Assembly: GCA_013360675.1 (NCBI GenBank)
Contig: JABWBB010000009.1
Location: 1 to 64,000, forward strand
Direction: 5' to 3'
From: Phycisphaerales bacterium
GTDB lineage: Bacteria; Planctomycetota; Phycisphaerae; Phycisphaerales; UBA1924
Length of the DNA stretch: 64,000 bases
Part shown: one piece after another, positions 12,328 to 27,453 of the stretch
Layout of the letters: each line of letters begins with the position of its first letter
Numbering within the stretch: position 1 is the stretch's first letter
The notes under the pieces: generated by a model
The model's input: only the letters and a program-made list of their open reading frames with translations
Databases searched by the model: none
What the model was told of the DNA's origin: nothing
Program-made: the position numbers and the translations under genes

Positions 12328-15129
12328 ATGTCCCATGTCCTTCGCGCGGGCGTGCGTGCCGCGGTACTGACCAGTCTGCTGGCCACCTGCGGCCTGGCGC
12401 TGGGTATTGATCAGAATGCCGCCGGCGGCTTTGTTCCGCCCGAGACCCAAGCGCTGATCGATGCGACCCCGGGCCTCCACGCCGACATGCTCCCCGGGCG
12501 CGTGATGGGCCTGTGGGGCACGGCGATGCTCGCCGCCAAGGATCCGGCCACCGCGGCCCAGTCGTGGCTGGCCATGCACGACCGGGCGCTGGGCGCCGGC
12601 CCGCTCGAGACCGCGCTCATCCGCGAGGACGAGGTCAACTACGGCAAGTTCAGCGTGTTCGTGTACGAGCAGCAGATGGACGGCGTGCCCGTCGAGTTTG
12701 GGCGCGTCCGCGTGATCGTGCTCAACACGCGCGACGACAGCCGCGTGGTGGGCGTGAGCTCCCGCGTGGCGCCGCGCCCCTTCGAGGGGTTCCGCCCCGA
12801 CACGCACGACGCCGTCGACGCGTTCAACGTGGTGACGTCCTTCGAGGTCTTCAAGCGATTCGAGAACTGGTCCAAGCCCGAGATGGTGATCTACTTCGGC
12901 GAGGGCGATCTGCCCGCGCCGATCGAGCCCGTCCGCGCGTGGAAGTTCACGGGCGAGTTGGTGCACGCCGATCCCGAGAAGTACCAGAAGAAAACCTTCT
13001 TCGTCGACGCGAGCAACGGGCGGCTGCTGTTCATCCGCAATGAGGTGCTGCACATCGACGTGACGGGCCAGGTGCTGGCCAACGCGACGCCCTGGCCGCT
13101 GGGCAACGCCGCCGCCGATCACGCGGGCAACCCGCCGATCCTGCAGACCGTGCCCAACATCAAGGTGCGGATCGTGGGCGGGGGCGAGGCCTTCACCGAC
13201 GCCGACGGCAACTTCACGATCGCGCACGCGGGCACGGCCCCCGTGACGATCGAGGCGAGCGTGGGCGATGGTCGCTGGGCCCGCGTGGCCGATCAGGGCG
13301 GCACGCCGCTGATCACCGCCAGCACCACCGCGACGCCGGGCATCCCCGCGACGCTGACCCTGAACACGACCCCGGGCCAGTTCACCAACGCCCAGGCCAA
13401 CGCGTTCATCCACCAGACGCTGACGCACAACCACTTCAAGGATCGCGCGCCCACCTTCACCGCGCTCGACACGCAGCTCCCGGCCAACACCGCCGTCTCG
13501 GGCTCGTGCAACGCCTTCTACAACGGCACCTCCACCAACTACTACAACATGAGCGCCACGTGCAACAACACCGCCTTCTCGTCGGTCGTTGCGCACGAGT
13601 ACGGGCACCACATCGTCAACCGCCTGGGCCTGGCCCAGGGGGCCTTTGGCGAGGGCTTCGGTGACACCATGAGCATGATGATCTACGACGACCCGGTGGT
13701 CGGGCGGTTCTTCAACATCAGCGGCGGGGCCGTCCGCACGCCCGACACCACCAACCAGCAGTACCCCTGCTCGACGACCGCCGTGCACACCTGCGGGCAG
13801 ATCCTGGGCAACGTGATGTGGGAGCTGCGCAAGGCCTTCGTCAACCAGCACGGGCTGACGAACGGGCGCGACATGATCCGCCAGCAGCACATCGACTGGG
13901 CCCTCATCACCGCGGGCGGCGTGGGCAATGAATCCGCCAACCCCGGCACCCTGTGGGAATGGCTCACTATCGATGACAACGACGGGAACCTCAACAACGG
14001 CAGCCCCAACTACTGCCTCATCGTCGGCGCGTTCGCGCAGAGCGGCATCCCCGAGCCGCAGCTCACCCCGTCGGTCGCGTTCGCCTTCCCCGATGGTCAG
14101 CCTTCGAACCTCGTGCCGGGCGTGGCGACGAACTTCCGCGTGAATGTCTCCGCCGGCAGCGCGACGCCCCTGCCGGGCACCGGGTCGCTCTACTACCGCC
14201 GCGTGGGCGCTTCGTCGTTCACGATCGCCCCCATGACGCAGGGCGCGGCCAACCAATACACCGCGACCATTCCCGCGCAGGACTGCGGCGCCCCGATCGA
14301 GTACTACGTGCGCGTCGGGATCAACGGCGGCGCGGCGGTCTCGCCCTATGCCTTCTGTGCACAGCCCACGCGCTACGCGACGATCACCAGCGGCCAGAGT
14401 GTCGTCGCCACCGACGACATGGAGATCGACCGCGGCTGGACGGTCGGTGGCAACGCCAGCTCGGGGGCATGGGTGTTGGGTGATCCGATCGGCACCGCCG
14501 CTCAGCCTGAAGACGACACCACCCCCGGCGGCGTGAACTGCTGGTTCACCGGCCAAGGCACGGCCGGCGGCGCGGTCGGCGAGGCCGACGTCGACGGCGG
14601 CTACACCATTCTCACCAGCCCCACCTACAACCTCAACGGCTTCGCCGATGCCGAGATCCGCTACAACCGCTGGTATTCCAACAACGCCGGAGCCGCCCCC
14701 GGCGCCGACTGGTTCTACACCTACGTCAGCACCAACGGCGGCTCGTCCTGGCGGCTGGCTCAGCTCGTCGGACCCAACGGCCCTGAAACCACCGGCGGGT
14801 GGAGGGCCTCGTCCTTCCGCCTCTCTGATGTGCGGTTGACGCCCACGTCGTCGGTGCGCGTGCGGTTCCGCGCCGAGGACATCTATTCAGGTTCAATCGT
14901 CGAGGCCGCCATCGATGACCTTGAAGTTATCGGCATCACCTGCGACAACGCGCCCCCCTGCCCGGGCGATTACAACGGCTCGGGCGGCACGCCCGACGAC
15001 GCCGACGTCGCCGCCTTCTTCGCCGACTGGAACGCGGGTGATCCCCGCGCCGACATCAACGGGAGCGGCGGCACGCCCGATGACGCCGACGTCGCCGAGT
15101 TCTTCAACTTCTGGAATCAGGGCTGCTGA
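12328..15129 (+). CDS. Secreted M36 (fungalysin-type) metallopeptidase with GC-type dockerin
   Basis: The protein has 933 aa and starts at an ATG with AGGAGG 8 bases upstream. A signal peptide (about 1-29, ending ALG) is followed by an FTP-type propeptide region (about 40-230), then the catalytic domain with HExxH (H423, E424, H427) and the third ligand in GEGFGD (E442), as in fungalysins. A MAM/jelly-roll-like domain (about 690-875) precedes a two-cysteine GC-type dockerin (878-933). M36 enzymes are made as zymogens and cleave extracellular proteins after removal of the propeptide. A strong terminator lies just downstream at 15146. Confidence 0.92.
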   Translation: MSHVLRAGVRAAVLTSLLATCGLALGIDQNAAGGFVPPETQALIDATPGLHADMLPGRVMGLWGTAMLAAKDPATAAQSWLAMHDRALGAGPLETALIREDEVNYGKFSVFVYEQQMDGVPVEFGRVRVIVLNTRDDSRVVGVSSRVAPRPFEGFRPDTHDAVDAFNVVTSFEVFKRFENWSKPEMVIYFGEGDLPAPIEPVRAWKFTGELVHADPEKYQKKTFFVDASNGRLLFIRNEVLHIDVTGQVLANATPWPLGNAAADHAGNPPILQTVPNIKVRIVGGGEAFTDADGNFTIAHAGTAPVTIEASVGDGRWARVADQGGTPLITASTTATPGIPATLTLNTTPGQFTNAQANAFIHQTLTHNHFKDRAPTFTALDTQLPANTAVSGSCNAFYNGTSTNYYNMSATCNNTAFSSVVAHEYGHHIVNRLGLAQGAFGEGFGDTMSMMIYDDPVVGRFFNISGGAVRTPDTTNQQYPCSTTAVHTCGQILGNVMWELRKAFVNQHGLTNGRDMIRQQHIDWALITAGGVGNESANPGTLWEWLTIDDNDGNLNNGSPNYCLIVGAFAQSGIPEPQLTPSVAFAFPDGQPSNLVPGVATNFRVNVSAGSATPLPGTGSLYYRRVGASSFTIAPMTQGAANQYTATIPAQDCGAPIEYYVRVGINGGAAVSPYAFCAQPTRYATITSGQSVVATDDMEIDRGWTVGGNASSGAWVLGDPIGTAAQPEDDTTPGGVNCWFTGQGTAGGAVGEADVDGGYTILTSPTYNLNGFADAEIRYNRWYSNNAGAAPGADWFYTYVSTNGGSSWRLAQLVGPNGPETTGGWRASSFRLSDVRLTPTSSVRVRFRAEDIYSGSIVEAAIDDLEVIGITCDNAPPCPGDYNGSGGTPDDADVAAFFADWNAGDPRADINGSGGTPDDADVAEFFNFWNQGC

Positions 15130-15202: not shown

Positions 15203-17533
15203 ATGGATCTACGTTCGTTGCTGGCGATCCCCCTCTTCTCGGCCGTTGCGCTCGGCCAGGGCCCGTGCGAAGATCCCTACGCCCCGGGCTTTGATGATCA
15301 CACGGGCTGCGGCAAGGCCTGCATGCTGCGCCAGCGCGCCGCCGCGGGCCTGCCCGTCAATGACGACCCCGCCCAGTCCTTCCAGGGGCGCGAGGCCATG
15401 GGCGCGACGGACGTGCTCTCGAACGATCTCGACATCGAGATCGATCCGGCCAATGTGACCATCAATGGCAGCAACACCATGCGCGTGCGCGTGCTTACGC
15501 AGGGCCTGACCGAGTTCACGTTCATGCTGCGCAGCAACTTCGCCATCACCTCGGCGACGATCAACGGCGCGACCAACGTCAGCGTCGCCAACCCGCCGGC
15601 CAACAGTTACGCGCGTCGCGTGACGCTCGACCGGGCCTACAACGCGGGCGAAGAGTTCACCCTGCGGATCGCCTACAACGGCCCCGCCGTCAGCCGCGGC
15701 TTTGGCTCGATCACCTTCGGCACGCAGCCCGGCTCGACCAACCCGATCGTCTCGACGCTCAGCGAGGCGTATTACGCGGGGACGTGGTGGCCCGTCAAAG
15801 ACGGCGACGTCTTCCTGCCGGGCGACAACGACGACAAGGCCACGCTCCGCCTGGCGATCACCGCGCCCAACACCCTGCGCAGCGTCTCCAACGGCCTGCT
15901 CACCGGCGTGACTGACCTGCCCAACAGCCGCCGTCGCTACCAGTGGGTGCACAACTACCCCATCTCGACGTACCTCGTCGCCTTCTCGTCGAGCGTCTAC
16001 AACACGTGGACGCGCACCTACACCTATCCGCTGTCGGGCGGCGGCACGGGCTCGATGCCCGTCGAGTTCAACATCTACCCGGGTTCCGACACGCCCGCCA
16101 ACCGCACCGCGTGGGAACTTTGTCTTCCCATGTTCGACGCCTTCCGCCCCGTCTTTGGCGAGTACCCCTTCGTCAACGAGAAATACGGCATCTACCAGTT
16201 CCCCTTCGGCGGCGGGATGGAGCACCAGACCAACACCGGCCAGGGCACCTTCAGCGAATCGGTCACCGCCCACGAACTCGGGCACCAGTGGTGGGGCGAT
16301 GACGTCACCTGCCGCACGTGGCACGACATCTGGCTCAACGAAGGCTTCGCGACCTACTCCGAAGCGCTCTGGTACGAGCGCAAGCCCGGCTCGGCGGGGA
16401 TCTCGGCGCTGCACGGGGCGATGGCCTCGCGCCGCCCCGGGGCCGTCAGCGGCAGCGTCTATGTCTACGCCACCAACGACATGAACCGTATCTTCAGCAG
16501 CACCTATTCCTATCGCAAGGCGGCGTGGGTGCTGCACCAGTTGCGCAAGGTGGTGGGGGATGCGACGTTCTTCCAGATCCTCGCCGCCCATCGCGCCGCG
16601 TTCTCCGGGCGCGGCGCTACGACCGACGAGTTCATCGCCCTCGCCTCGAGCATCAACATGCAGAACGGCGGCGAAGATCTGCAGGGCTTCTTCACCCAGT
16701 GGGTCTACGCCGGGGGCGCGCCCGAATATGTCTACGCCTGGGAGAACGCCACCATCGGCGGCGCGCCCTACCTGCGCCTGCGCATCCGCCAGACGCAGGA
16801 TGCGACCTGGGGCGTCGATTCGCGCTTCGACATGCCCGTGGACATCCGCGTGAATACGGGCGCGACCCACACGACGCGCACCGTCCGCAACGACCGTCGC
16901 GATCAATATTTCCTGCTGCCGCTCACCGCCCCCGCCACGGACATCGTGCTCGACGAGTTCAACTGGATCCTGAACACCGCCAAGACGAGCGAGGCATACG
17001 TCCCGGGGCCGCCCAAGATCGCCGCCGCGTCGATCGCCCCCGGCGATGAGATCCGCGCGGATCTCTTCGCGGGCGAGGTGTGGCTGCAGTTCAGCGACGC
17101 GGTCTCCATCACGCCCGCGCATGTCACGCTCACCGGCCCCGGCGGCAGCATCCCCGTGACACTCGCGTACAACGCCGCCTCTTGGCGTGCGACCATCACC
17201 ACCGGTCTGCTCGCGCCCGGGGCCTATACGCTCGGCGTCGGCGCGGGCGTCACCGCCCAGGTCGGGGGCAGCGCGCTCGATGGCGAGATCGCCGGGTCGC
17301 TCCCCTCGGGCAACGGCATCGCCGGCGGCAACGCCGCCCTCGCCTTCGTCATCACCCCCGCCTGCCTGGCCGATTTCAACGCCAGCGGCGGGACCCCCGA
17401 CGATGCCGACGTCGCCGATTTCTTCGCCGCCTGGAGCGCGGGCGAAGAGGCCGCCGACATCAACGCCAGCGGCGGGACCCCCGACGACGCCGACGTCGCC
17501 GAGTTCTTCACTCTCTGGAACAACGGCTGCTGA
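15203..17533 (+). CDS. Secreted M1-family aminopeptidase with GC-type dockerin
   Basis: The protein has 776 aa. The ATG at 15203 follows ACGGAG and begins a signal peptide (MDLRSLLAIPLFSAVALG). The zinc site HELGHQWWGD (H357, E358, H361) and NEGFATY (E380) has the M1 spacing of 18 residues between HExxH and Glu. The upstream GGMEHQ corresponds to the GxMEN substrate-binding motif, with Asn replaced by His. An Ig-like domain (about 610-715) leads to a two-cysteine GC-type dockerin (721-776). It should remove N-terminal residues from extracellular peptides and so complements the M36 endopeptidase encoded just upstream. Confidence 0.93.
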   Translation: MDLRSLLAIPLFSAVALGQGPCEDPYAPGFDDHTGCGKACMLRQRAAAGLPVNDDPAQSFQGREAMGATDVLSNDLDIEIDPANVTINGSNTMRVRVLTQGLTEFTFMLRSNFAITSATINGATNVSVANPPANSYARRVTLDRAYNAGEEFTLRIAYNGPAVSRGFGSITFGTQPGSTNPIVSTLSEAYYAGTWWPVKDGDVFLPGDNDDKATLRLAITAPNTLRSVSNGLLTGVTDLPNSRRRYQWVHNYPISTYLVAFSSSVYNTWTRTYTYPLSGGGTGSMPVEFNIYPGSDTPANRTAWELCLPMFDAFRPVFGEYPFVNEKYGIYQFPFGGGMEHQTNTGQGTFSESVTAHELGHQWWGDDVTCRTWHDIWLNEGFATYSEALWYERKPGSAGISALHGAMASRRPGAVSGSVYVYATNDMNRIFSSTYSYRKAAWVLHQLRKVVGDATFFQILAAHRAAFSGRGATTDEFIALASSINMQNGGEDLQGFFTQWVYAGGAPEYVYAWENATIGGAPYLRLRIRQTQDATWGVDSRFDMPVDIRVNTGATHTTRTVRNDRRDQYFLLPLTAPATDIVLDEFNWILNTAKTSEAYVPGPPKIAAASIAPGDEIRADLFAGEVWLQFSDAVSITPAHVTLTGPGGSIPVTLAYNAASWRATITTGLLAPGAYTLGVGAGVTAQVGGSALDGEIAGSLPSGNGIAGGNAALAFVITPACLADFNASGGTPDDADVADFFAAWSAGEEAADINASGGTPDDADVAEFFTLWNNGC

Positions 17534-17619
17534 GGCAACGCCGCTCGCTGTCTTGGATCGAACACATTTGGGCTTGCCGCGCCGCCTGGTTCATGCTTGA
17601 ATCGGACCCGGAGGACCGC

Positions 17620-18885
17620 ATGAAGATCGCCCTGCTTGTCACCCTGGCGCTCGCCGCGCCCGCGCTGGCCCAGACCCGCTTAATGCTTTCCGATCGCGCG
17701 CGCGATTCGATGTGGACGCTGCTCGACGCCAACGGCACGTGGCAGATCCCCGACCCCGCGGGCGTCGTGCCCTACTTCACCATCGCCAACGCCCAGGGCA
17801 CGCAGCGCGTCGACAACATCAACGCCTTCGCGGTACGCGCGTCCGACGCCCTCGTCGTCGGCGGCGATCAGGTCACCGGCTTCATCTACGCCTGGCAGGA
17901 CATCAACGGCGACGGCGACGCCGAAGACCCCTGCGAGTCCCGCATCTACGCCACCCTCCCCATCCGCTCCTTCGCCTTCCCCACCGGCGTGGCGTTCGAT
18001 TCCCTGGGCCGCCTCTACGTCTGCAACGCGGGCAACGGCTTCGGCGACGACATCATCAACCGCCTGACCGATCTCAACGCCGATGGCGATTGCGACGACG
18101 CGGGCGAGGTCACCCCCTACGTCGCCGATGGGTTCTTCGGCCCGGGCAACGGGCCCTACTCGCCCCAGGAAATCTGCTTCCTGCCCGGCGGCCCGGGCGG
18201 GCGCGACATTCTCTATCTGCGCAACTCCTCGGCCAATCTCCACGGCGTCTACCGCTTCATCGATCTCAACGACAACGCCCGCGCCGACGACGCGGGCGAG
18301 TTCAACACCTTCTTCTCCGCCGCCAACGCGTCGGGCGTCACCCTCAGCGCGGGCTTCACCATCGAGCCCGACCTGGCCCGCCCCGGCTCGCTCTACTTCC
18401 TCCAGATCGCCACGGGCGGCGTCGACCAGTTGTACCGCCTGACCGATCTCAATGGCGACGGCGACGCCCTGGACGCGGGCGAGGCCGTTCTCGTCTTCTC
18501 GACCGCCGAAGCCGGGTTCACCAGCGTTGATGCGGTGAGCGTTCCCGACGGCTCGGTCCTCATCACCGACAACAGCGGTAAGCGCATCATCCGCCTGGTG
18601 GACACCGACGCCGACGGCACGTTCATGAGCGTGGGCGACCTCCGCACCGATGTGCTCGTCGCCGCCTCGCTGGTGGGCGATGTGCGCCAACTGGCCCTGA
18701 TGCCCGAGCCCGCGTGCGTGGGCGATTACAACCGCTCGGGGGGCACGCCCGACGACGCCGACGTCGCCGCGTTCTTTGCGGATTGGAACGACGCCGCCTG
18801 CCGTGCCGATGTCAACGGCAGCGGCGGCACCCCCGACGACGCCGACGTGGCCGAGTTCTTTGAACGATGGAATGCCGGGTGCTGA
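17620..18885 (+). CDS. Secreted beta-propeller-like calcium-loop protein with GC-type dockerin
   Basis: The protein has 421 aa. The ATG at 17620 has GGAGGA upstream and opens a clean signal peptide (ending APALAQ); an in-frame ATG nine codons upstream is less likely. The body carries recurrent acidic loops such as DINGDGDAED, DLNADGDCDD, DLNDNARADD and DLNGDGDALD, each preceded by a short hydrophobic strand, which suggests a propeller with calcium-binding loops, one per blade. The GC-type dockerin (366-421) is an intermediate form: one Cys before loop 1, an extra Cys between the loops (AACRAD) and a single-Gly GC end. Catalytic function is not evident. Confidence 0.8.
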   Translation: MKIALLVTLALAAPALAQTRLMLSDRARDSMWTLLDANGTWQIPDPAGVVPYFTIANAQGTQRVDNINAFAVRASDALVVGGDQVTGFIYAWQDINGDGDAEDPCESRIYATLPIRSFAFPTGVAFDSLGRLYVCNAGNGFGDDIINRLTDLNADGDCDDAGEVTPYVADGFFGPGNGPYSPQEICFLPGGPGGRDILYLRNSSANLHGVYRFIDLNDNARADDAGEFNTFFSAANASGVTLSAGFTIEPDLARPGSLYFLQIATGGVDQLYRLTDLNGDGDALDAGEAVLVFSTAEAGFTSVDAVSVPDGSVLITDNSGKRIIRLVDTDADGTFMSVGDLRTDVLVAASLVGDVRQLALMPEPACVGDYNRSGGTPDDADVAAFFADWNDAACRADVNGSGGTPDDADVAEFFERWNAGC

Positions 18886-19042
18886 CCCCGGAACCGCGTT
18901 CTTCTTGATTCAAACAGGGGTATAGAACAAGGCACAAAATCCCTGGCGATAACCCCGCCTTGCCTGTAGACTTAAAAACAGGTTGTTGTAGTCCGCAATT
19001 CGCGCGTTGCGTCCTCAACACCTCATGGCAAGGCGGTGCACG

Positions 19043-20638
19043 ATGAATCTGTGCTCGGCGGTTCGGCGTTGTGTCTACACGGCGGCGGCGGGCTCGCTCG
19101 CGCTGCTCCCCTCCCTGGCCCTCGCCCAGTGCCCCGACGGCTGGTCCACCACCTTCGGTGCCCCCGGCGCCGACAACCCAATCCACGCCATGATCAACTA
19201 CGACCCCGACGGCACGGGGCCCAGCCCATCGATGCTCGTCGTGGGCGGGTCCTTCGCCCGCATCGGCGGTAACTGGATCAACAACATCGCCGCGTGGAAC
19301 GGCACCACATGGATCCCGATGGGCACGGGCTCCAACGGCACCGTCCGCGCCTTTGCCCTCCTCCCCAACGCCTCGGGCGGCAACGACCTCATCGCCGCAG
19401 GGTCGTTCTGGATCATGGACGGCGTCTCCACCCCCTACATCGCCCGGTGGAACGGCTCGGCCTGGTCCAGCATCGGCGCGATGGACGCACCGGTCTGGTG
19501 CCTCCTGACCACGCCCAGCGCCTCGGGCGGCGTAGACCTCATCGCCGGGGGCGACTTCAACACCGCTGGCGGAACATCCGCCTATTACATCGCCCGCTGG
19601 AATGGCAGCGCCTGGTCGAACTTCGCCCCCGGCCCCGAGCAGCGCGTCCGCGCCCTCATCAACGCCCCGGGGGGCGGCTTCTACGCCACCGGCAACTTCA
19701 TGTTCGCCGGCGGCCAGACGGTCAACAACATTGCCCGGTGGAACGGCAGCGCCTGGTCCCCCCTCGGCTCGGGCCTCGGCTCGGGCGGTGTGGCCCTCGC
19801 GCTCATGCCCAGTGGTGACCTCGTTGTGGGCGGCAGTTTCCAGACGGCGGGCGGGTCCCCCGCCAGCCGCGTTGCACGATGGAACGGCAGCGCCTGGTCC
19901 GCCCTGGGCGCAGGGGTCAGCAGCGACGTCGCCGCACTCCACGCCCTGCCCAGCGGCGACCTGCTCGTCGGCGGCTACTTCACCAGCGCGGGCGGCGCCG
20001 GCGCCCCCTACCTGGCCCGATGGAATGGCAGCGCATGGTCCGCCTTTGGCGGCGGGACCAACCTCAACGTCTATGCCCTGCTGCGCCACACCGGGGGCGA
20101 CATTCTCGTGGGCGGTCACTTCTCCGCGGCGGGGGGGATCACCTCCAACCGCATCGCCCGCTACTCGATCGGCGCCCCGGCCCCGATCATCACCACGCAC
20201 CCCGCCGACATCACTAACTGCGGACAGATCACCACGTCATTCACCTGCATCGGCGATCCGGGCGTCTCGGGCAGCGGCCTGCCGGGCCCGCCCCTGACTT
20301 ACGCCTGGCGTAAGAACAGCGTCGCCATCAACCCGCTGGCCAATCCCTCCGCCGCCACGCCCACGCTCGTGCTCCCCGCAGCGGGCATGGCCAACGAAGG
20401 GCCGTATGACTGCATCGTGACCAATACCTGCGGCAGCGCGACCAGCACGCCGGCGCAACTCAGCGTCTGCCCCGCCGACTTCAACTGCTCGGGGGGCACG
20501 CCCGACGATGCCGATGTCGCCGCGTTCTTCATCGCCTGGTCCCTGGGCCTCGACAGCGCCGACATCAACGCCAGCGGCGGCACCCCCGACGACGCCGATG
20601 TCGCCTACTTCTTTACCCGCTGGAGCGCGGGATGTTGA
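19043..20638 (+). CDS. Secreted WNGxxW-repeat propeller protein with Ig-like domain and GC-type dockerin (copy 1)
   Basis: The protein has 531 aa with a signal peptide ending ALALAQ (about residue 29). Residues about 45-380 contain roughly seven repeats with the core IARWNGSAWSxxG, each followed by a GDLxVGGxFxxAGG strand, as in Rax2-like propellers. An Ig-like domain (about 385-472) and a two-cysteine GC-type dockerin (476-531) follow. The ATG at 19043 is preceded by AAGGCGGT; an in-frame ATG at 19025 is possible. It is paralogous to the gene at 20965-22653, and both are followed by a tmk start (broken here, intact there), so they arose by tandem duplication. It is probably a binding or structural protein. 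Confidence 0.82.
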   Translation: MNLCSAVRRCVYTAAAGSLALLPSLALAQCPDGWSTTFGAPGADNPIHAMINYDPDGTGPSPSMLVVGGSFARIGGNWINNIAAWNGTTWIPMGTGSNGTVRAFALLPNASGGNDLIAAGSFWIMDGVSTPYIARWNGSAWSSIGAMDAPVWCLLTTPSASGGVDLIAGGDFNTAGGTSAYYIARWNGSAWSNFAPGPEQRVRALINAPGGGFYATGNFMFAGGQTVNNIARWNGSAWSPLGSGLGSGGVALALMPSGDLVVGGSFQTAGGSPASRVARWNGSAWSALGAGVSSDVAALHALPSGDLLVGGYFTSAGGAGAPYLARWNGSAWSAFGGGTNLNVYALLRHTGGDILVGGHFSAAGGITSNRIARYSIGAPAPIITTHPADITNCGQITTSFTCIGDPGVSGSGLPGPPLTYAWRKNSVAINPLANPSAATPTLVLPAAGMANEGPYDCIVTNTCGSATSTPAQLSVCPADFNCSGGTPDDADVAAFFIAWSLGLDSADINASGGTPDDADVAYFFTRWSAGC

Positions 20639-20668
20639 CATCCACCCGCCGGGGGGCAACCTCCCCGC

Positions 20669-20989
20669 GTGACCGAGCAGGCCCTCCTCGGCATGCTCCG
20701 CGGGCGGTTCATCGCCCTTGAAGGGCCCGACGGCTCGGGCAAGTCCACCTGTTGCAAATTCGTCGTTTCCTGCCTCTGTCACGCGGCGCTTGTCTGCAAG
20801 GTCCGAGAGCCCGGCGGCACACCGAATGACGTCGACTTCAGCGGCGACATCGCCCCCGGCAGACGCGACGTCGAGGCCGCGGGGCAGTCGTGGGCAGCGG
20901 GTCGTGCCCGTGAAATATCATCCGATGAACACTTGTTGAGATCTGCCAAGATATATTCTCAGGGATGCATTCATGGATCGTCAAGATGA
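20669..20989 (+). pseudogene. Truncated duplicate of the tmk 5' end
   Basis: The reading frame begins GTGACCGAGCAGGCC exactly as the intact tmk at 22685, and keeps the P-loop (EGPDGSGKST) and VREPGGTP, with scattered substitutions. After about position 825 of this kilobase (20825) similarity stops and the frame runs through unrelated sequence to 20989, overlapping the start of the next gene. The kinase core, DRF motif and lid are missing, so it cannot be a working thymidylate kinase. The 30 bases before it also match those before the intact tmk, so this is the scar of a tandem duplication that included the upstream dockerin gene. Confidence 0.88.
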
Positions 20990-22653
20990 CGCGTGAGCGG
21001 GCGGCCAGCGTCATCGTTGCGTGCGTGACAGCAGCCGCGGCGGCGCAGTGCGATCCCCGGTGGCTCCCGGAGACCCCGACGCAACCATTGTCCCTCGGCG
21101 CGGCCGCAATGGTGCGGCACCCTGACAGGCGCGTGTTTGCGGGTGGGTCCTTCAGTCAGGCGGGCGGGGTCAGCGCGAATCGCATCGCGCTCTGGGACGG
21201 CGTGGCGTGGTCTTCCATCAATGCCGCGCTGACGCCAGCCCAGCTCACCCCACGCGTGCACGCGATGGCGGTCATGCCCAACGGCGACCTGATCGTCGCC
21301 GGACACTTCGGCGGCGCAGGCGGCATCACCACAAACCACATCGCGCGTTGGAACGGAACCACATGGTCGTCTCTGGGCGGCGGGGTCTCCGGCGCAAGTT
21401 CAGGCAACAACCCGGCAGTCTTTTCACTCCTGGCGCTCCCCGATGGAGACCTCATCGTCGGCGGCGAGTTCACCACGGCCGGAAGCACGCCGGCCATGCG
21501 AATCGCCCGATGGGACGGCGAAGCCTGGCACGCCCTCGGGGCGGGTTTCGGCAGCCTTAGTTCGTATACGCCCGTCTATGGCCTGGCGCTGGCCCCCTCG
21601 GGCGCGATTATCGCCGGAGGACAGTTCCTCAACTCGGGCGCCCTGGGGCTGGGGTGCATCGCGTCATGGAACGGCTCGGCCTGGTCGGCTTTGTCCACCG
21701 GCATGACCAACAGCGGCTCGCCCGCGATCGTCCGCGCGTTGGCCTTTGAATCCGACGGGGCGCTCATCGCCGCGGGGCGTTTCAACCTCGCCGGCGGCGT
21801 CGCGGCTCGCTCCATCGCCCGCTGGAACGGCGTGGCCTGGGCCAGCGTCGGCGGCAACGTGGGATCACTACCCCAGCACGAAGTGGTCGCGCTAGCACTA
21901 TCACCCAGTGGCGAGATCACCGTTGGGGGCACATTTGATTCCGTCGCGGGCTCTCCCGCGTCGGCCATCGCCCGCTGGAATGGCTCCACCTGGTCAACGT
22001 TCTTGGGAGGGGTCTCCACCGGCACGGTCACCACGCCCAGCGTGTCGAGTCTTTTGCTTCTGCCCGGCGGCGAGTTGCTCGCGAGCGGAACATTCCTCTT
22101 CGCGGGCGGCAATCCCGCCACGCGATTCGCCAGATGGACCGACACGGGCATGCCCATGGTCATGCGTGAGCCCGCCACGCCCGAACCCGCGTGCCACGAA
22201 GCGATGTCGTACAGCGTCACGCTTGCTGGCGGTTATGCGCAGGCTTCACCGTCATGGCAGATCGAGGACCCTCACGCCGCGAACACGTGGCTCGACCTCG
22301 TGGACGGCCCGATCATGGTCCACGGAGAACACATCGCCAGCGCGGCCGGTGCGGACACGATCGCGCTCGAAATCACACCCCACACATCCTTCGCACCCAC
22401 GCGGGTCCGTTGCGCCATCTCAAACACGTGCGGCATCACCTACACAGAACCATCCACACTTGAGACAACGTGCACGCCCTCGTGCCTCGCCGATTTCAAC
22501 CGCTCGGGGGGCACCCCCGACGATGCCGACGTCGATGCGTTCTTTGACGCCTGGTCCCAGGGCCTCGACAGCGCCGACATCAACGCCAGCGGCGGCACCC
22601 CCGACGACGCCGATGTGGACTACTTCTTTGAACGCTGGAACGCCGGGTGCTGA
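20965..22653 (+). CDS. Secreted WNGxxW-repeat propeller protein with GC-type dockerin (copy 2)
   Basis: The protein has up to 562 aa. Either the ATG at 20965 (CAGGG just upstream) or the one at 20986 could start it; both give a signal peptide ending TAAAAAQ. About seven repeats with WNGxxW and a GGxFxxAGG strand fill residues about 45-395, followed by a partly degenerate Ig-like region and a two-cysteine GC-type dockerin (507-562). The last 30 residues are nearly the same as those of the gene at 19043-20638 (GLDSADINASGG), while the propellers have diverged more. The tmk gene starts 32 bases after its stop, so they may be co-transcribed. Confidence 0.82.
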   Translation: MHSWIVKMTRERAASVIVACVTAAAAAQCDPRWLPETPTQPLSLGAAAMVRHPDRRVFAGGSFSQAGGVSANRIALWDGVAWSSINAALTPAQLTPRVHAMAVMPNGDLIVAGHFGGAGGITTNHIARWNGTTWSSLGGGVSGASSGNNPAVFSLLALPDGDLIVGGEFTTAGSTPAMRIARWDGEAWHALGAGFGSLSSYTPVYGLALAPSGAIIAGGQFLNSGALGLGCIASWNGSAWSALSTGMTNSGSPAIVRALAFESDGALIAAGRFNLAGGVAARSIARWNGVAWASVGGNVGSLPQHEVVALALSPSGEITVGGTFDSVAGSPASAIARWNGSTWSTFLGGVSTGTVTTPSVSSLLLLPGGELLASGTFLFAGGNPATRFARWTDTGMPMVMREPATPEPACHEAMSYSVTLAGGYAQASPSWQIEDPHAANTWLDLVDGPIMVHGEHIASAAGADTIALEITPHTSFAPTRVRCAISNTCGITYTEPSTLETTCTPSCLADFNRSGGTPDDADVDAFFDAWSQGLDSADINASGGTPDDADVDYFFERWNAGC

Positions 22654-22684
22654 CATCCGCCCGCCGGGCGGGTAACCTCCCCGC

Positions 22685-23374
22685 GTGACCGAGCAGGCCC
22701 TCCTCAACCAACTCCGCGGGCGGTTCATCGCCTTTGAAGGGCCCGACGGCTCGGGCAAGTCCACGCAGCTCAAGCGCCTCGTCGCCCTCTGCCTCCAGCA
22801 CGACGTGCCCGTCTGCGAGGTGCGAGAGCCCGGCGGCACGCCCATCGGCGAGTCGATCCGCCAGATCCTCCTCCACACCAAGGACGAGATGTCTCTCCGC
22901 TGCGAGATGCTCCTCTACATGGCCAGCCGCGTGCAGCTCGTCGAGCAGCGCATCCGCCCCGCCCTGGCCCGGGGCGAACTCGTCATTGCCGACCGCTTCG
23001 TCGGCTCGACCTACGCCTACCAGGGGGCGGCGGGTGGCATCCCCGTCGCCGAGATCGACGCCGTCGCCAAGGTCGCCCTTCAGGGCACCGCCCCCGAACT
23101 CGTGCTGATCTTCGATGTCGACGAAGAGACCGCCGCCCGCCGCACCCGGGGCGTGGTCAAGAAATCGGGCGGCAAGCAGGCCAAGGTCGCCGGGCAGGTG
23201 ACGCTCTTTGACGACCGCATCGAGCAGCGGGGCCAGGCCTTCCACGCGAACGTGCGCCGGGGCTACCACGAACTCGCCGCCCGCGAACCGGACCGCCACC
23301 GCCTGATCGACGCCTCGAAAGGCCCCGACGAGGTTTGGGCGAGCCTGCTCAAGGTGCTGAGCGAGCGGTTCTAG
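22685..23374 (+). CDS. tmk: Thymidylate kinase
   Basis: The protein has 229 aa and phosphorylates dTMP to dTDP in DNA precursor synthesis. The P-loop EGPDGSGKST (residues 18-27), the DRF motif (about residue 100, ADRFVGSTYAYQG) and a lid region (about 150-175) are present, and the length is close to the usual 205-230 aa. The start is GTG at 22685, supported by the identical start context in the truncated copy at 20669. No clear ribosome site precedes it. cysS follows after 24 bases in the same direction. Confidence 0.95.
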   Translation: MTEQALLNQLRGRFIAFEGPDGSGKSTQLKRLVALCLQHDVPVCEVREPGGTPIGESIRQILLHTKDEMSLRCEMLLYMASRVQLVEQRIRPALARGELVIADRFVGSTYAYQGAAGGIPVAEIDAVAKVALQGTAPELVLIFDVDEETAARRTRGVVKKSGGKQAKVAGQVTLFDDRIEQRGQAFHANVRRGYHELAAREPDRHRLIDASKGPDEVWASLLKVLSERF

Positions 23375-23398
23375 CCCATTCGTGATCTATCATCGCCC

Positions 23399-25021
23399 AT
23401 GCCGCTGGTCCTGCAGAGCACCCTCGACCGTCAGCCCCGCCCCTTCGTCCCGCGCGATCCGGCGCATGTGACCTTTTACACCTGCGGCCCGACGGTCTAT
23501 GACGATGCGCACATCGGCAACTTCCGGTCCTTTCTCGCCGCCGATCTCCTGCGCCGATTCCTCGAAAGCCCCCTGTGCGAAGTGACGCTGCGCGAGGGGG
23601 GCGTGCACGCGGGGCCGCGCACCGTCACCCACGTCATGAACATCACCGACGTGGGGCACATGACCGAAGACGACGTGGCCGACGGCGCGGGCGAGGACAA
23701 GATGGCCGCCGCCGGGCGACGCCTGGCCGAGGCGAAGAAGGCGGGCAAACTCCCCGCGGGCGTGGACGTGAACCCGTCGGATCCTTTTGCCGTCGCCCGG
23801 TTTTATGAGGCTCGCTTCAAGGAAGACGCCGTCCGCCTGGGGCTGAAACTCGCGATCGAGGCGCAGCGCGACCCCACGCTGATGCCCCGCGCCACCGAAA
23901 ACGTTGCCGGGATGATCGAGGCGATCGCGCGACTGATCGAGCGCCGGTGCGCCTACATCGTGGGCGAGCCGGGTGCGCGCGTGGTGTATTTCGACGTGCA
24001 GGCCTTCCCGGCCTATGGGCGGCTGTCGGGCAACACGCTCGACAACCTGCGCGAGGGCGAGGGCGGGCGCGTCAGCGCCGCGAACCAGGCCGGCAAGAAG
24101 CACCCCGCCGACTTCCTGCTGTGGAAGGAAGACCCCACGCACATCATGAAGTGGGAGAGCCCCTGGGGCGATGGGTACCCCGGCTGGCACATCGAGTGCA
24201 CCGCGATGAGCATCGCCCGCCTGACGAGCCCGCCCTCCCCGGGCGAGTTCATCCCCACCGATGTCGCCTTTCCGGGCGCAGTGCTCGACCTGCACAGCGG
24301 GGGCGAGGACAACATCTTCCCGCACCACGAGTGCGAGATCGCCCAGTCCTGCTGCGCCTACACCGCCAGCACGCTCAGCGGGCAGTTCTCGCGTGTCTGG
24401 TTCCACCCGCGCTTCCTGCTCGTCGAGGGGGCGAAGATGAGCAAGAGCAAGGGCAACTTCTTCACCCCGCGCGAACTCTTCGCCAAGGGCATCGAGCCCG
24501 CGGCGTTGCGCCTCGAACTCATCCGCACCCACTACCGCAGCAACGCCAACTTCACCATGCAGGGCCTGACCGACGGGCAGCGCATCATCGACCGCTGGCG
24601 TCGCGTGCTCGATGATGACACCGCGGGCGACGAGCCCTCACCCGGCGCCAAGGCCGCCCTAGCCGCCTTCGCCGACGCGATGCACGACGACCTGAACGTC
24701 GCGGGGGCGATCGCCGCGGTCAACTCGTGGCTCAACACCATCACCAAGCCCACGCGCGAGGATCAGGCCGCCCTGCGCACCATCGACGCGGTGCTGGGCG
24801 TGCTCGGCCTCGAGCGGCCCAAGGCCACGACCACCGGCATCGGCGTCTACGCTCCGGGCGTCGAGCCCAGCCCCGAGATCGAGGCCCTGCTCGCGCTGCG
24901 CCGTGACGCCCGCGCCGCCAAGGACTTCGCCACCAGCGACGCCATCCGCGATCAACTCGCCCAGCGCGGCCTCGCAATCAAGGACGGGCCCGGCGGCAGC
25001 GTCGAGGTCCGCCGCTCGTGA
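23399..25021 (+). CDS. cysS: Cysteinyl-tRNA synthetase
   Basis: The protein has 540 aa and charges tRNA-Cys with cysteine in the cytoplasm. The class I signatures are present: HIGN (H38-N41) and KMSKS (346-350). Zinc ligands fit the family: C29 in YTCGPTVYD, the Cys of HIECTAMS and HHEC further on. The C-terminal helical part is of ordinary length with a short C-terminal tail. The stop TGA overlaps the GTG start of the next gene (GTGA), indicating translational coupling with the HAD phosphatase. Confidence 0.97.
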   Translation: MPLVLQSTLDRQPRPFVPRDPAHVTFYTCGPTVYDDAHIGNFRSFLAADLLRRFLESPLCEVTLREGGVHAGPRTVTHVMNITDVGHMTEDDVADGAGEDKMAAAGRRLAEAKKAGKLPAGVDVNPSDPFAVARFYEARFKEDAVRLGLKLAIEAQRDPTLMPRATENVAGMIEAIARLIERRCAYIVGEPGARVVYFDVQAFPAYGRLSGNTLDNLREGEGGRVSAANQAGKKHPADFLLWKEDPTHIMKWESPWGDGYPGWHIECTAMSIARLTSPPSPGEFIPTDVAFPGAVLDLHSGGEDNIFPHHECEIAQSCCAYTASTLSGQFSRVWFHPRFLLVEGAKMSKSKGNFFTPRELFAKGIEPAALRLELIRTHYRSNANFTMQGLTDGQRIIDRWRRVLDDDTAGDEPSPGAKAALAAFADAMHDDLNVAGAIAAVNSWLNTITKPTREDQAALRTIDAVLGVLGLERPKATTTGIGVYAPGVEPSPEIEALLALRRDARAAKDFATSDAIRDQLAQRGLAIKDGPGGSVEVRRS

Positions 25022-25800
25022 ACCTTCGCCTCACACCCCATCCCGCCCGCCGTTTCGACGCGATCATCTCCGACATCGACGGCTGCCTGGGCCCCGAGTC
25101 CCACGCCCCGCTCGATGCATCGTCGCTCCTCACGCTCGCGCGCCACAATGCCCGGGCGGTGTCGACGGGCGACGTGCCGCTCATCACGCTCTGCTCGGGG
25201 CGTCCCCAGCCCTACGCCGAGGCCATGTGCCGCCTGCTGGGCAACACGCTCCTGCCCTGCGTCTGCGAGAACGGCGTGTGGCTCTACGACCCGCGCGACA
25301 ACGCCTTCCTGCGCGATCCAACCATCACGGCGCACCACCTCGATGCCGTCCGCGATGCCACACGCTGGTTCGAGGCCGACCTCATCCCCCGCGGCGTGGT
25401 GATCCAGCCGGGCAAGACCGCATCAATCAGCCTGTGGCACCCCGACACCGCCTTCCTCCTCTCGCTGCGCGAGCCCATCCGCGAGCGGTTCACGCGTGAA
25501 TCGTGGCCTTTGCGCGTGTCGAACACCGTCGCCTGGATCAACTGCGACCTGACCCACGTGAACAAGGGCACGGGGATCGACCGCCTGCTGGCGATGACGG
25601 GCCTGACGCGCGAGCGAGCCGCGGGCATCGGCGATATGCCCGGCGATCTGGCCATCCGTGAGCGGGTGGCCTTCTTCGCCAGCCCGGTGAACGCCGAGGC
25701 GAGCGTCAAGGCCGCCAGCGATTACATCTCGCCGTATGAAGAGATCGAGGGCGTGCTCGACATCGTGGCGCGCCTGAGCCTCCCCCCCGCGAGCGTGTAA
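25018..25800 (+). CDS. HAD-superfamily hydrolase (Cof-like)
   Basis: The protein has 260 aa. HAD motif I is DIDGC (D19 nucleophile, D21 acid/base) and motif IV is GDMPGD (D206, D210), with a cap between motifs as in the Cof/IIB subfamily of sugar-phosphate and phosphoglycolate phosphatases. The substrate cannot be told from sequence. It starts at GTG overlapping the cysS stop by three bases and ends just before the M14 peptidase gene, so tmk, cysS, this gene and the peptidase may form one transcript. Confidence 0.85.
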   Translation: MNLRLTPHPARRFDAIISDIDGCLGPESHAPLDASSLLTLARHNARAVSTGDVPLITLCSGRPQPYAEAMCRLLGNTLLPCVCENGVWLYDPRDNAFLRDPTITAHHLDAVRDATRWFEADLIPRGVVIQPGKTASISLWHPDTAFLLSLREPIRERFTRESWPLRVSNTVAWINCDLTHVNKGTGIDRLLAMTGLTRERAAGIGDMPGDLAIRERVAFFASPVNAEASVKAASDYISPYEEIEGVLDIVARLSLPPASV

Positions 25801-25809
25801 TCTGTGCCG

Positions 25810-27453
25810 ATGCGCACGATGCTCTTGCCGTTGCTCGCCGCCCCGCTCGCCCTCGCCCAGCCTGCTCCCCAGCCCGCGCCGCACGCCGAGCCGGCGAAAG
25901 ACGCAGTCCCGATCGCCGAACTGCGCAGCGTCGCCGAATCGAGTGACTACAAGGCCACCGCCCTGCACGCGCAAGTTGTCTCGTTCCTCGATGCCATGGC
26001 GCAGGACCACCGCGTCACGCGCCTGACCCTGGGCACATCAACCCAGGGGCGCGAGATCCCGCTCGTCATCCTTGCCGACCCGCCCATCCGCAGCGCCGAA
26101 GAGGCGCAGATCGCCCGCGAGATGGACGGCAAAGTCGTCGTCTTCATCATCGGCAACATCCACGCGGGCGAGGTCTGCGGCAAGGAAGCCCTCCCCATGC
26201 TCGCACGCGATCTCCTCGTTCGCAACGACCCCCTCCTCTCTCGACTCATCATCGCCATCGCCCCCATCTACAACTGCGACGGCAACGAACAAGTCGCCGT
26301 CAACAACCGCCCGGGTCAGAACGGCCCCGAACTTGGCATGGGCAAGCGTGAGAACGGCCAGGGCCTCGACCTCAATCGCGACTTCATCAAGCTCGAAGCC
26401 CCCGAAACCCGCGCTCTGGTCGGCTTTCTCAACGCGTGGGATCCCCTCCTCTTCATCGACACCCACACCACCAACGGCTCGCACCACCGTTTCACCATCA
26501 CTTACGGCGGGCCCAAGGCCCTCGCCGGCGATGAAGCCGTCCGACTCTTCTTTCGCGATCGATTCATGCCCCAGGTCGCCGATCGCTACAGCGCCTCCTG
26601 CGGCGAGCCCACGTTCTACTACGGCTCGTTCGGCGACGGCGTCTTTGGCGACCCCGCCCACGACAAGGCCACCTGGGGCACCTACCCCGCCGAGGCGCGA
26701 TTCGGCACCAACTACGTCGGCCTGCGCGGGCGCATGAGCCTGCTCAGCGAGGCCTATTCCTACGCGCCGTACAAGGACCGCGTGCTCCGCACCTACGACT
26801 TCGTCCACGCCGCCCTGGCCTGGTGCGACCAGAACCACGACGAACTGGCGCGCCTGTGCGACGGCGCCGACGCCCGCGCCAGGGCCTCACCCCGCGACAT
26901 GGTCGCCATCCGCACGCGCACCGTCGCCTGCCCGGGCAAGGTCACCGTGCTCGGGTTCGAGGAAGAAATCAAGAACGGGCGATCCGTCAGCACCGGCATC
27001 CCCCGCGATTACAGCGTCGATCTGCTCGACTGCTACGAGCCCGAGGTGAGCGTCGCCCGCCCGCGGGCCTATCGCATCGAGCGCGATGTGCGCCTCGAGC
27101 CCGTGATCGACACGCTCCGCATGCACGGCGTCGTCGTGCGCGAGGTGCGCCGCGCGACCACCATCCCCGGCGAACGCCTCACCATCACCAAGGCCACCGC
27201 GGCCAGCCGCCCCTTCCAGGGGCACGTGCTCGTCAAGGCCGAGGCCGAGGCCGCCGCCGGCGATGTACCGCTGAACGCGGGCGACTGGTACATCAGCACC
27301 GCCCAGCCCCTGAGCAACCTGATCGTTTATGCGCTCGAGCCCCAGTCCGAAGACGGCCTGGCCACGTGGAACTTCTTTGACCCCTGGCTCACGCCCGGCG
27401 CGACCTTCCCCGTCTGGCGCATCACCGCCCCGAGCATCGACGGCGTCGAGTAA
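25810..27453 (+). CDS. M14-family zinc carboxypeptidase, exported
   Basis: The protein has about 547 aa with a signal peptide (ending LALAQ, about residue 17). Zinc ligands H118 and E121 (HAGE) and H219 (DTHTTNG) and the general base E314 (LSEAYSY) fit peptidase family M14, which removes C-terminal residues from peptides. A beta-rich C-terminal domain (about 365-547) follows the catalytic part. The ATG at 25810 is preferred to a GTG at 25804; neither has a good ribosome site. It lacks a dockerin, unlike the peptidases at the left of the window. It converges on glyA with only 3 bases between stops. Confidence 0.87.
   Translation: MRTMLLPLLAAPLALAQPAPQPAPHAEPAKDAVPIAELRSVAESSDYKATALHAQVVSFLDAMAQDHRVTRLTLGTSTQGREIPLVILADPPIRSAEEAQIAREMDGKVVVFIIGNIHAGEVCGKEALPMLARDLLVRNDPLLSRLIIAIAPIYNCDGNEQVAVNNRPGQNGPELGMGKRENGQGLDLNRDFIKLEAPETRALVGFLNAWDPLLFIDTHTTNGSHHRFTITYGGPKALAGDEAVRLFFRDRFMPQVADRYSASCGEPTFYYGSFGDGVFGDPAHDKATWGTYPAEARFGTNYVGLRGRMSLLSEAYSYAPYKDRVLRTYDFVHAALAWCDQNHDELARLCDGADARARASPRDMVAIRTRTVACPGKVTVLGFEEEIKNGRSVSTGIPRDYSVDLLDCYEPEVSVARPRAYRIERDVRLEPVIDTLRMHGVVVREVRRATTIPGERLTITKATAASRPFQGHVLVKAEAEAAAGDVPLNAGDWYISTAQPLSNLIVYALEPQSEDGLATWNFFDPWLTPGATFPVWRITAPSIDGVE

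Follow-up and report, generated by a model that had tools for sequence, protein, structure and literature searches.

A recombination scar of about 360 bp between two propeller/dockerin genes upstream of tmk

Two neighbouring genes for propeller/dockerin surface proteins, each followed by the start of the thymidylate kinase gene tmk, raise the question whether a whole gene together with the beginning of its neighbour was duplicated in tandem, as a first-pass annotation had proposed, or whether a smaller event left this arrangement behind. The locus lies in the window, i.e. the whole stretch of 64,000 nucleotides that was analysed, from a planctomycete-type bacterium whose genome (G000) consists of 84 contigs and is 97% complete. 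All features discussed are on the forward strand. Gene 1 (19043-20638) codes for WNG/DUF5122 beta-propeller repeats, an Ig-like domain (a Pfam match) and a GC-type dockerin (20468-20635). Gene 2 (20965-22653), adjacent to gene 1 and in the same orientation, codes for propeller repeats and again a GC-type dockerin. As in the family NF041540, these dockerins are C-terminal doubled repeats that end in GC and occur in many copies per genome; yet with 23.1 and 22.7 bits both stayed below the curated NCBIfam cut-off of 29. A spacer of 30 or 31 nt and a GTG-started tmk 5' end follow each gene. To this extent the annotated pair does occur twice; the likeness did not extend to the bodies outside the repeat, which share 39% of their residues.

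Only the second tmk is intact (22685-23374; TIGR00041, E = 3.5e-44, 150.9 bits against a cut-off of 83.25). The first is a relic, and its annotated length of about 157 bases was borne out. It comprises the first 53 codons (20669-20827), ends about 155-159 nt after its GTG start (20669 to 20823/20827) and is 72% identical in amino acids to the intact tmk; TIGR00041 recognized it at E = 1.9e-7 with 31 bits, below the cut-off. An unplaced intergenic stretch preceding gene 2 (20861-20964) had no convincing similarity elsewhere. No RNA family reached its gathering score in 18600-23500. A scan of 20400-22900 for promoters and terminators gave one match each, with shuffle means of 0.2 and 1.2.

Extent of the repeat

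When 17001-26000 was compared with the whole window by blastn, one long match emerged apart from the background of the dockerin family. It joined 20468-20823 to 22483-22842 (361 columns, 85.3% identity, E = 2.5e-112) and contained the dockerin tail, the stop codon, the spacer (30 nt in copy 1, 20639-20668, 90% identical to copy 2) and about 157 nt of tmk. The diagonal that the first-pass annotation had expected in a dot-plot was indeed unbroken from the dockerin into tmk, but on the left it reached only as far as the 5' boundary of the dockerin; its right end lay inside tmk. The unit present twice therefore measures about 360 bp and falls short of the whole pair of gene and tmk start. A search of the entire genome with 20640-20970 returned the second copy at E = 6e-46, and all other matches had E-values of 2e-5 or worse. 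Upstream of the two genes, the flanks 18886-19200 and 20824-21150 had no similarity; their local score was 9, whereas 20 shuffles averaged 10.8. Nor was tmk found joined to the 5' flank of gene 1, a trace that a very old event would no longer show.

Identity along the repeat was uneven. The dockerin contained an identical run of 57 nt (P = 0.001 for random placement), identity dropped to 61% at 20749-20800 and came to 91% immediately ahead of the break. This may reflect several tracts or local decay.

Age of the bodies and of the 3' ends

The ages of the parts were compared in codon alignments of gene 1 with gene 2 (449 body codons and 56 dockerin codons) and of the relic with tmk (53 codons). 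In the bodies 51% of the bases were identical and fourfold sites were at chance level (43.7% identity versus 43.1% expected, n = 119). The dockerins had 88.1% base identity and 83.3% at fourfold sites (n = 24), where the chance level was 63.7%, raised by biased composition. The tmk 5' ends had 79.9% base identity and 81.5% at fourfold sites (n = 27; chance 51.3%). Synonymous sites are saturated in the bodies but not in the 3' ends, a contrast that selection at the protein level does not explain. The tract is far more similar than the flanking paralogous sequence and its edge is sharp, as in gene conversion or tail copying. The scar is a real recombination event, younger than both genes that it joins.

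The relic has decayed. It has lost the Gln after the P-loop which is present in the tmk of 73 out of 73 relatives and an Arg found in 61 of the 73. At one site the relation was reversed and the Ala of the relic was the commoner residue (37 of 73). Differences at conserved sites were mostly on the relic side, though the rows compared are not independent. From tmk to relic the differences leaned to a loss of G+C (16 versus 9).

Relatives were also searched for the arrangement itself. Among 60 relatives there was no congeneric genome, and the best tmk elsewhere was 65% identical in 163 family genomes and 63% in 45 loci in genome contigs. From best matches only, 74 tmk loci were collected, of which 69 with at least 300 nt upstream were usable (66 distinct tmk sequences, some genomes being represented twice); in none of the 69 was a dockerin located within 1.5 kb upstream of tmk. 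In two loci (L124 and L136, from G179 and G180) a dockerin gene was situated just downstream of tmk in the opposite orientation.

We favour as the probable history that gene 1 and gene 2 have long been paralogues, with bodies of ancient divergence, and that a tail reaching from the dockerin across the spacer into tmk was copied afterwards. Recombination in this lineage would have entered at the dockerin coding sequence, and the tail of the tmk-proximal gene, i.e. dockerin, stop, spacer and the first approximately 157 nt of tmk, would have been copied onto the tail of the other gene. The dead tmk 5' fragment would then have stayed between the two genes. A switch at the short sequence GGCGGCAC, which codes for part of GGTP and is common to tmk and dockerin repeats, probably brought the copying to its end. 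We infer the direction of copying, the mechanism of the switch and the number of events. Tail copying is supported by the confinement of the repeat to dockerin, spacer and tmk 5' end, by the contrast at fourfold sites between bodies at chance and 3' ends at 81-83%, and by the mostly relic-sided differences with the loss of the Gln present in all 73 relatives. Further support came from direct comparisons: the best matches in other genera, among the 163 family genomes, reached 297 bits for gene 1 and 272 bits for gene 2, whereas gene 1 and gene 2 matched each other with 171-183 bits. Each matched genes of other genera more strongly than it matched its neighbour. The patchy identity of the repeat counts against tail copying, as does the body tree. 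This tree (22 rows, selected for a length of 420-660 amino acids among 62 matching frames and three of G000) was mostly without resolution and was compatible with gene 1 and gene 2 being sisters (p-AU 0.148).

The same tree is in keeping with an old tandem duplication of the gene and the tmk 5' end that made both genes and the relic, followed by gene conversion which kept dockerin, spacer and tmk 5' end similar. Both genes are adjacent, have the same orientation and have propeller repeats plus a dockerin, and they align over 462 columns at 35%. We regard this as unlikely. Two processes are needed, the bodies are saturated, closer matches to each body exist in other genera and the upstream flanks are dissimilar. 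It is, however, the only form in which the annotated single origin of both paralogues and the relic survives, namely as a very old duplication later re-homogenised at its 3' end.

The break within tmk

The longest exact matches of tmk to any dockerin of the genome were 13 nt long and were located at tmk 146-159 and at tmk 60. The former codes for GGTP, which is present in both tmk and dockerin proteins, and the break of the relic (tmk 155-159) falls on it. In the region of the break (20813-20860), GGCGGCAC, common to tmk and dockerin, is followed by a short stretch that resembles a dockerin. After the 12-nt motif 23 out of 36 nt matched the dockerin repeat in register (P about 0.0015, a test made after the match had been seen; 0.15% of 10,000 random stretches of the window reached this value). 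The profile score of this short stretch was 5.9 bits. Its dockerin-like character is suggestive. A break on the longest tmk/dockerin match, continued by dockerin-like sequence in register, may be a further argument for tail copying, weakened by the shortness of the stretch and by the order of sighting and test.

Ectopic recombination between dispersed repeats, i.e. gene conversion or partial duplication with a truncated neighbour, has the same hallmarks, a short tract of high identity between diverged paralogues and a dead remnant of the 5' end of the gene downstream. Here, however, one end is in a domain present 54 times in the genome and the other probably on a tmk match of 8-13 nt. In homology-facilitated illegitimate recombination one end is homologous and the other is a microhomology. 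The locus probably has this combination of ends; it differs in that no donor DNA was found. By such a route a fragment of gene 2, dockerin, spacer and tmk from another strain or species might have been joined via dockerin/tmk homology and the short match inside tmk, splitting gene 1 from its tmk. The position of the break on the 13-nt match and the GC3 of the gene 2 body (0.80, compared with 0.89 in gene 1 and 0.92 in tmk) are compatible with an import. Yet among 54 bodies of dockerin genes this GC3 is only the eighth lowest, i.e. gene 2 is no outlier and a foreign origin could not be deduced from it, and a donor locus was found neither in the 45 loci in genome contigs nor in the 163 family genomes. 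An import is distinctly unlikely. Finally, a single unequal tandem duplication of the entire unit, never followed by re-copying, agrees with the continuous diagonal from dockerin into tmk but is extremely improbable, since that diagonal stays out of the bodies, and bodies saturated at fourfold sites next to unsaturated dockerin and tmk ends cannot both result from it; on this ground such a whole-gene duplication is rejected. The scar corrects this tempting story.

Dockerin tails across the genome

Does the tail copying favoured here have parallels in the same genome? At E ≤ 0.01 the genome contained 54 dockerin tails, 28 of which passed the NF041540 cut-off of 29 bits. They had two main endings, GC and GGC. 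In identity the dockerins of gene 1 and gene 2 ranked 13th among 1431 pairs of tails. This is unexceptional; therefore, only the spacer and the tmk part prove the event. With 185 nt, the gene 1/gene 2 pair belonged to the ten that extended farthest beyond the stop codon, a group that also held a self-overlap and tail-to-tail neighbours on contig C64. A precedent for tail copying was a pair on two other contigs, C73:144667 and C14:2020, which shared the dockerin and the next 86 nt on its 3' side (88% identity over 286 columns) while their bodies had no similarity at E ≤ 1e-5. The two loci are C73:144667-144831 and C14:2020-2184 (L148, L150), and the shared flank ends in what, judged from the sequence, looks like a terminator hairpin. 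A weaker extension past the stop (73 nt, 79%) connected C50:4204 with C14:2020. In a comparison genome from a relative (G090) only 1 of 2072 aligned pairs extended at least 25 nt past the stop; 72 of the 74 listed dockerin matches were used, a short fragment on its contig C5 and a second match in the gene counted at C4:294175 having been dropped. This near absence counts against tail copying. Copying of a tail along with its 3' flank can occur, if rarely.

The first-pass annotation had also taken the locus as showing that local duplication is the way in which the dockerin family grows. This was not upheld. Bodies were related in 1 of 28 neighbouring dockerin pairs, which was gene 1/gene 2, versus 36 among all 1431 pairs; in this genome the family does not grow mainly by local duplication.

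The one scar demonstrates that a dockerin tail is able to evolve apart from the protein that carries it. If tail copying was common, it would help to explain why a single genome has similar dockerins on dozens of proteins that are not related to each other; so far, its support consists of two pairs in one genome and practically none in G090. Possibly, and here we are doubtful, dockerin repeats serve as recombination handles by which tails together with 3' flanks are copied between unrelated genes for secreted proteins, with switches at the GGTP-coding motif and new bodies acquiring a native tail. With the same reserve, the flanks carried along would be a terminator-like hairpin in one case and, in a different one, the beginning of a housekeeping gene. 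Nothing was found under the family name in the accessible portions of the literature.

Codon usage was compared within the 54 genes. GC3 of the dockerin was mostly above the expectation from the codons of its own body, most clearly in bodies of low GC3. Such an excess occurred in 8 of 9 genes with low GC3, but 38 of the 45 others had it as well, which makes it a weak sign. On contig C64 two pairs of dockerin genes (13708-14115 and 20691-21123; L137) are arranged tail to tail with short spacers.
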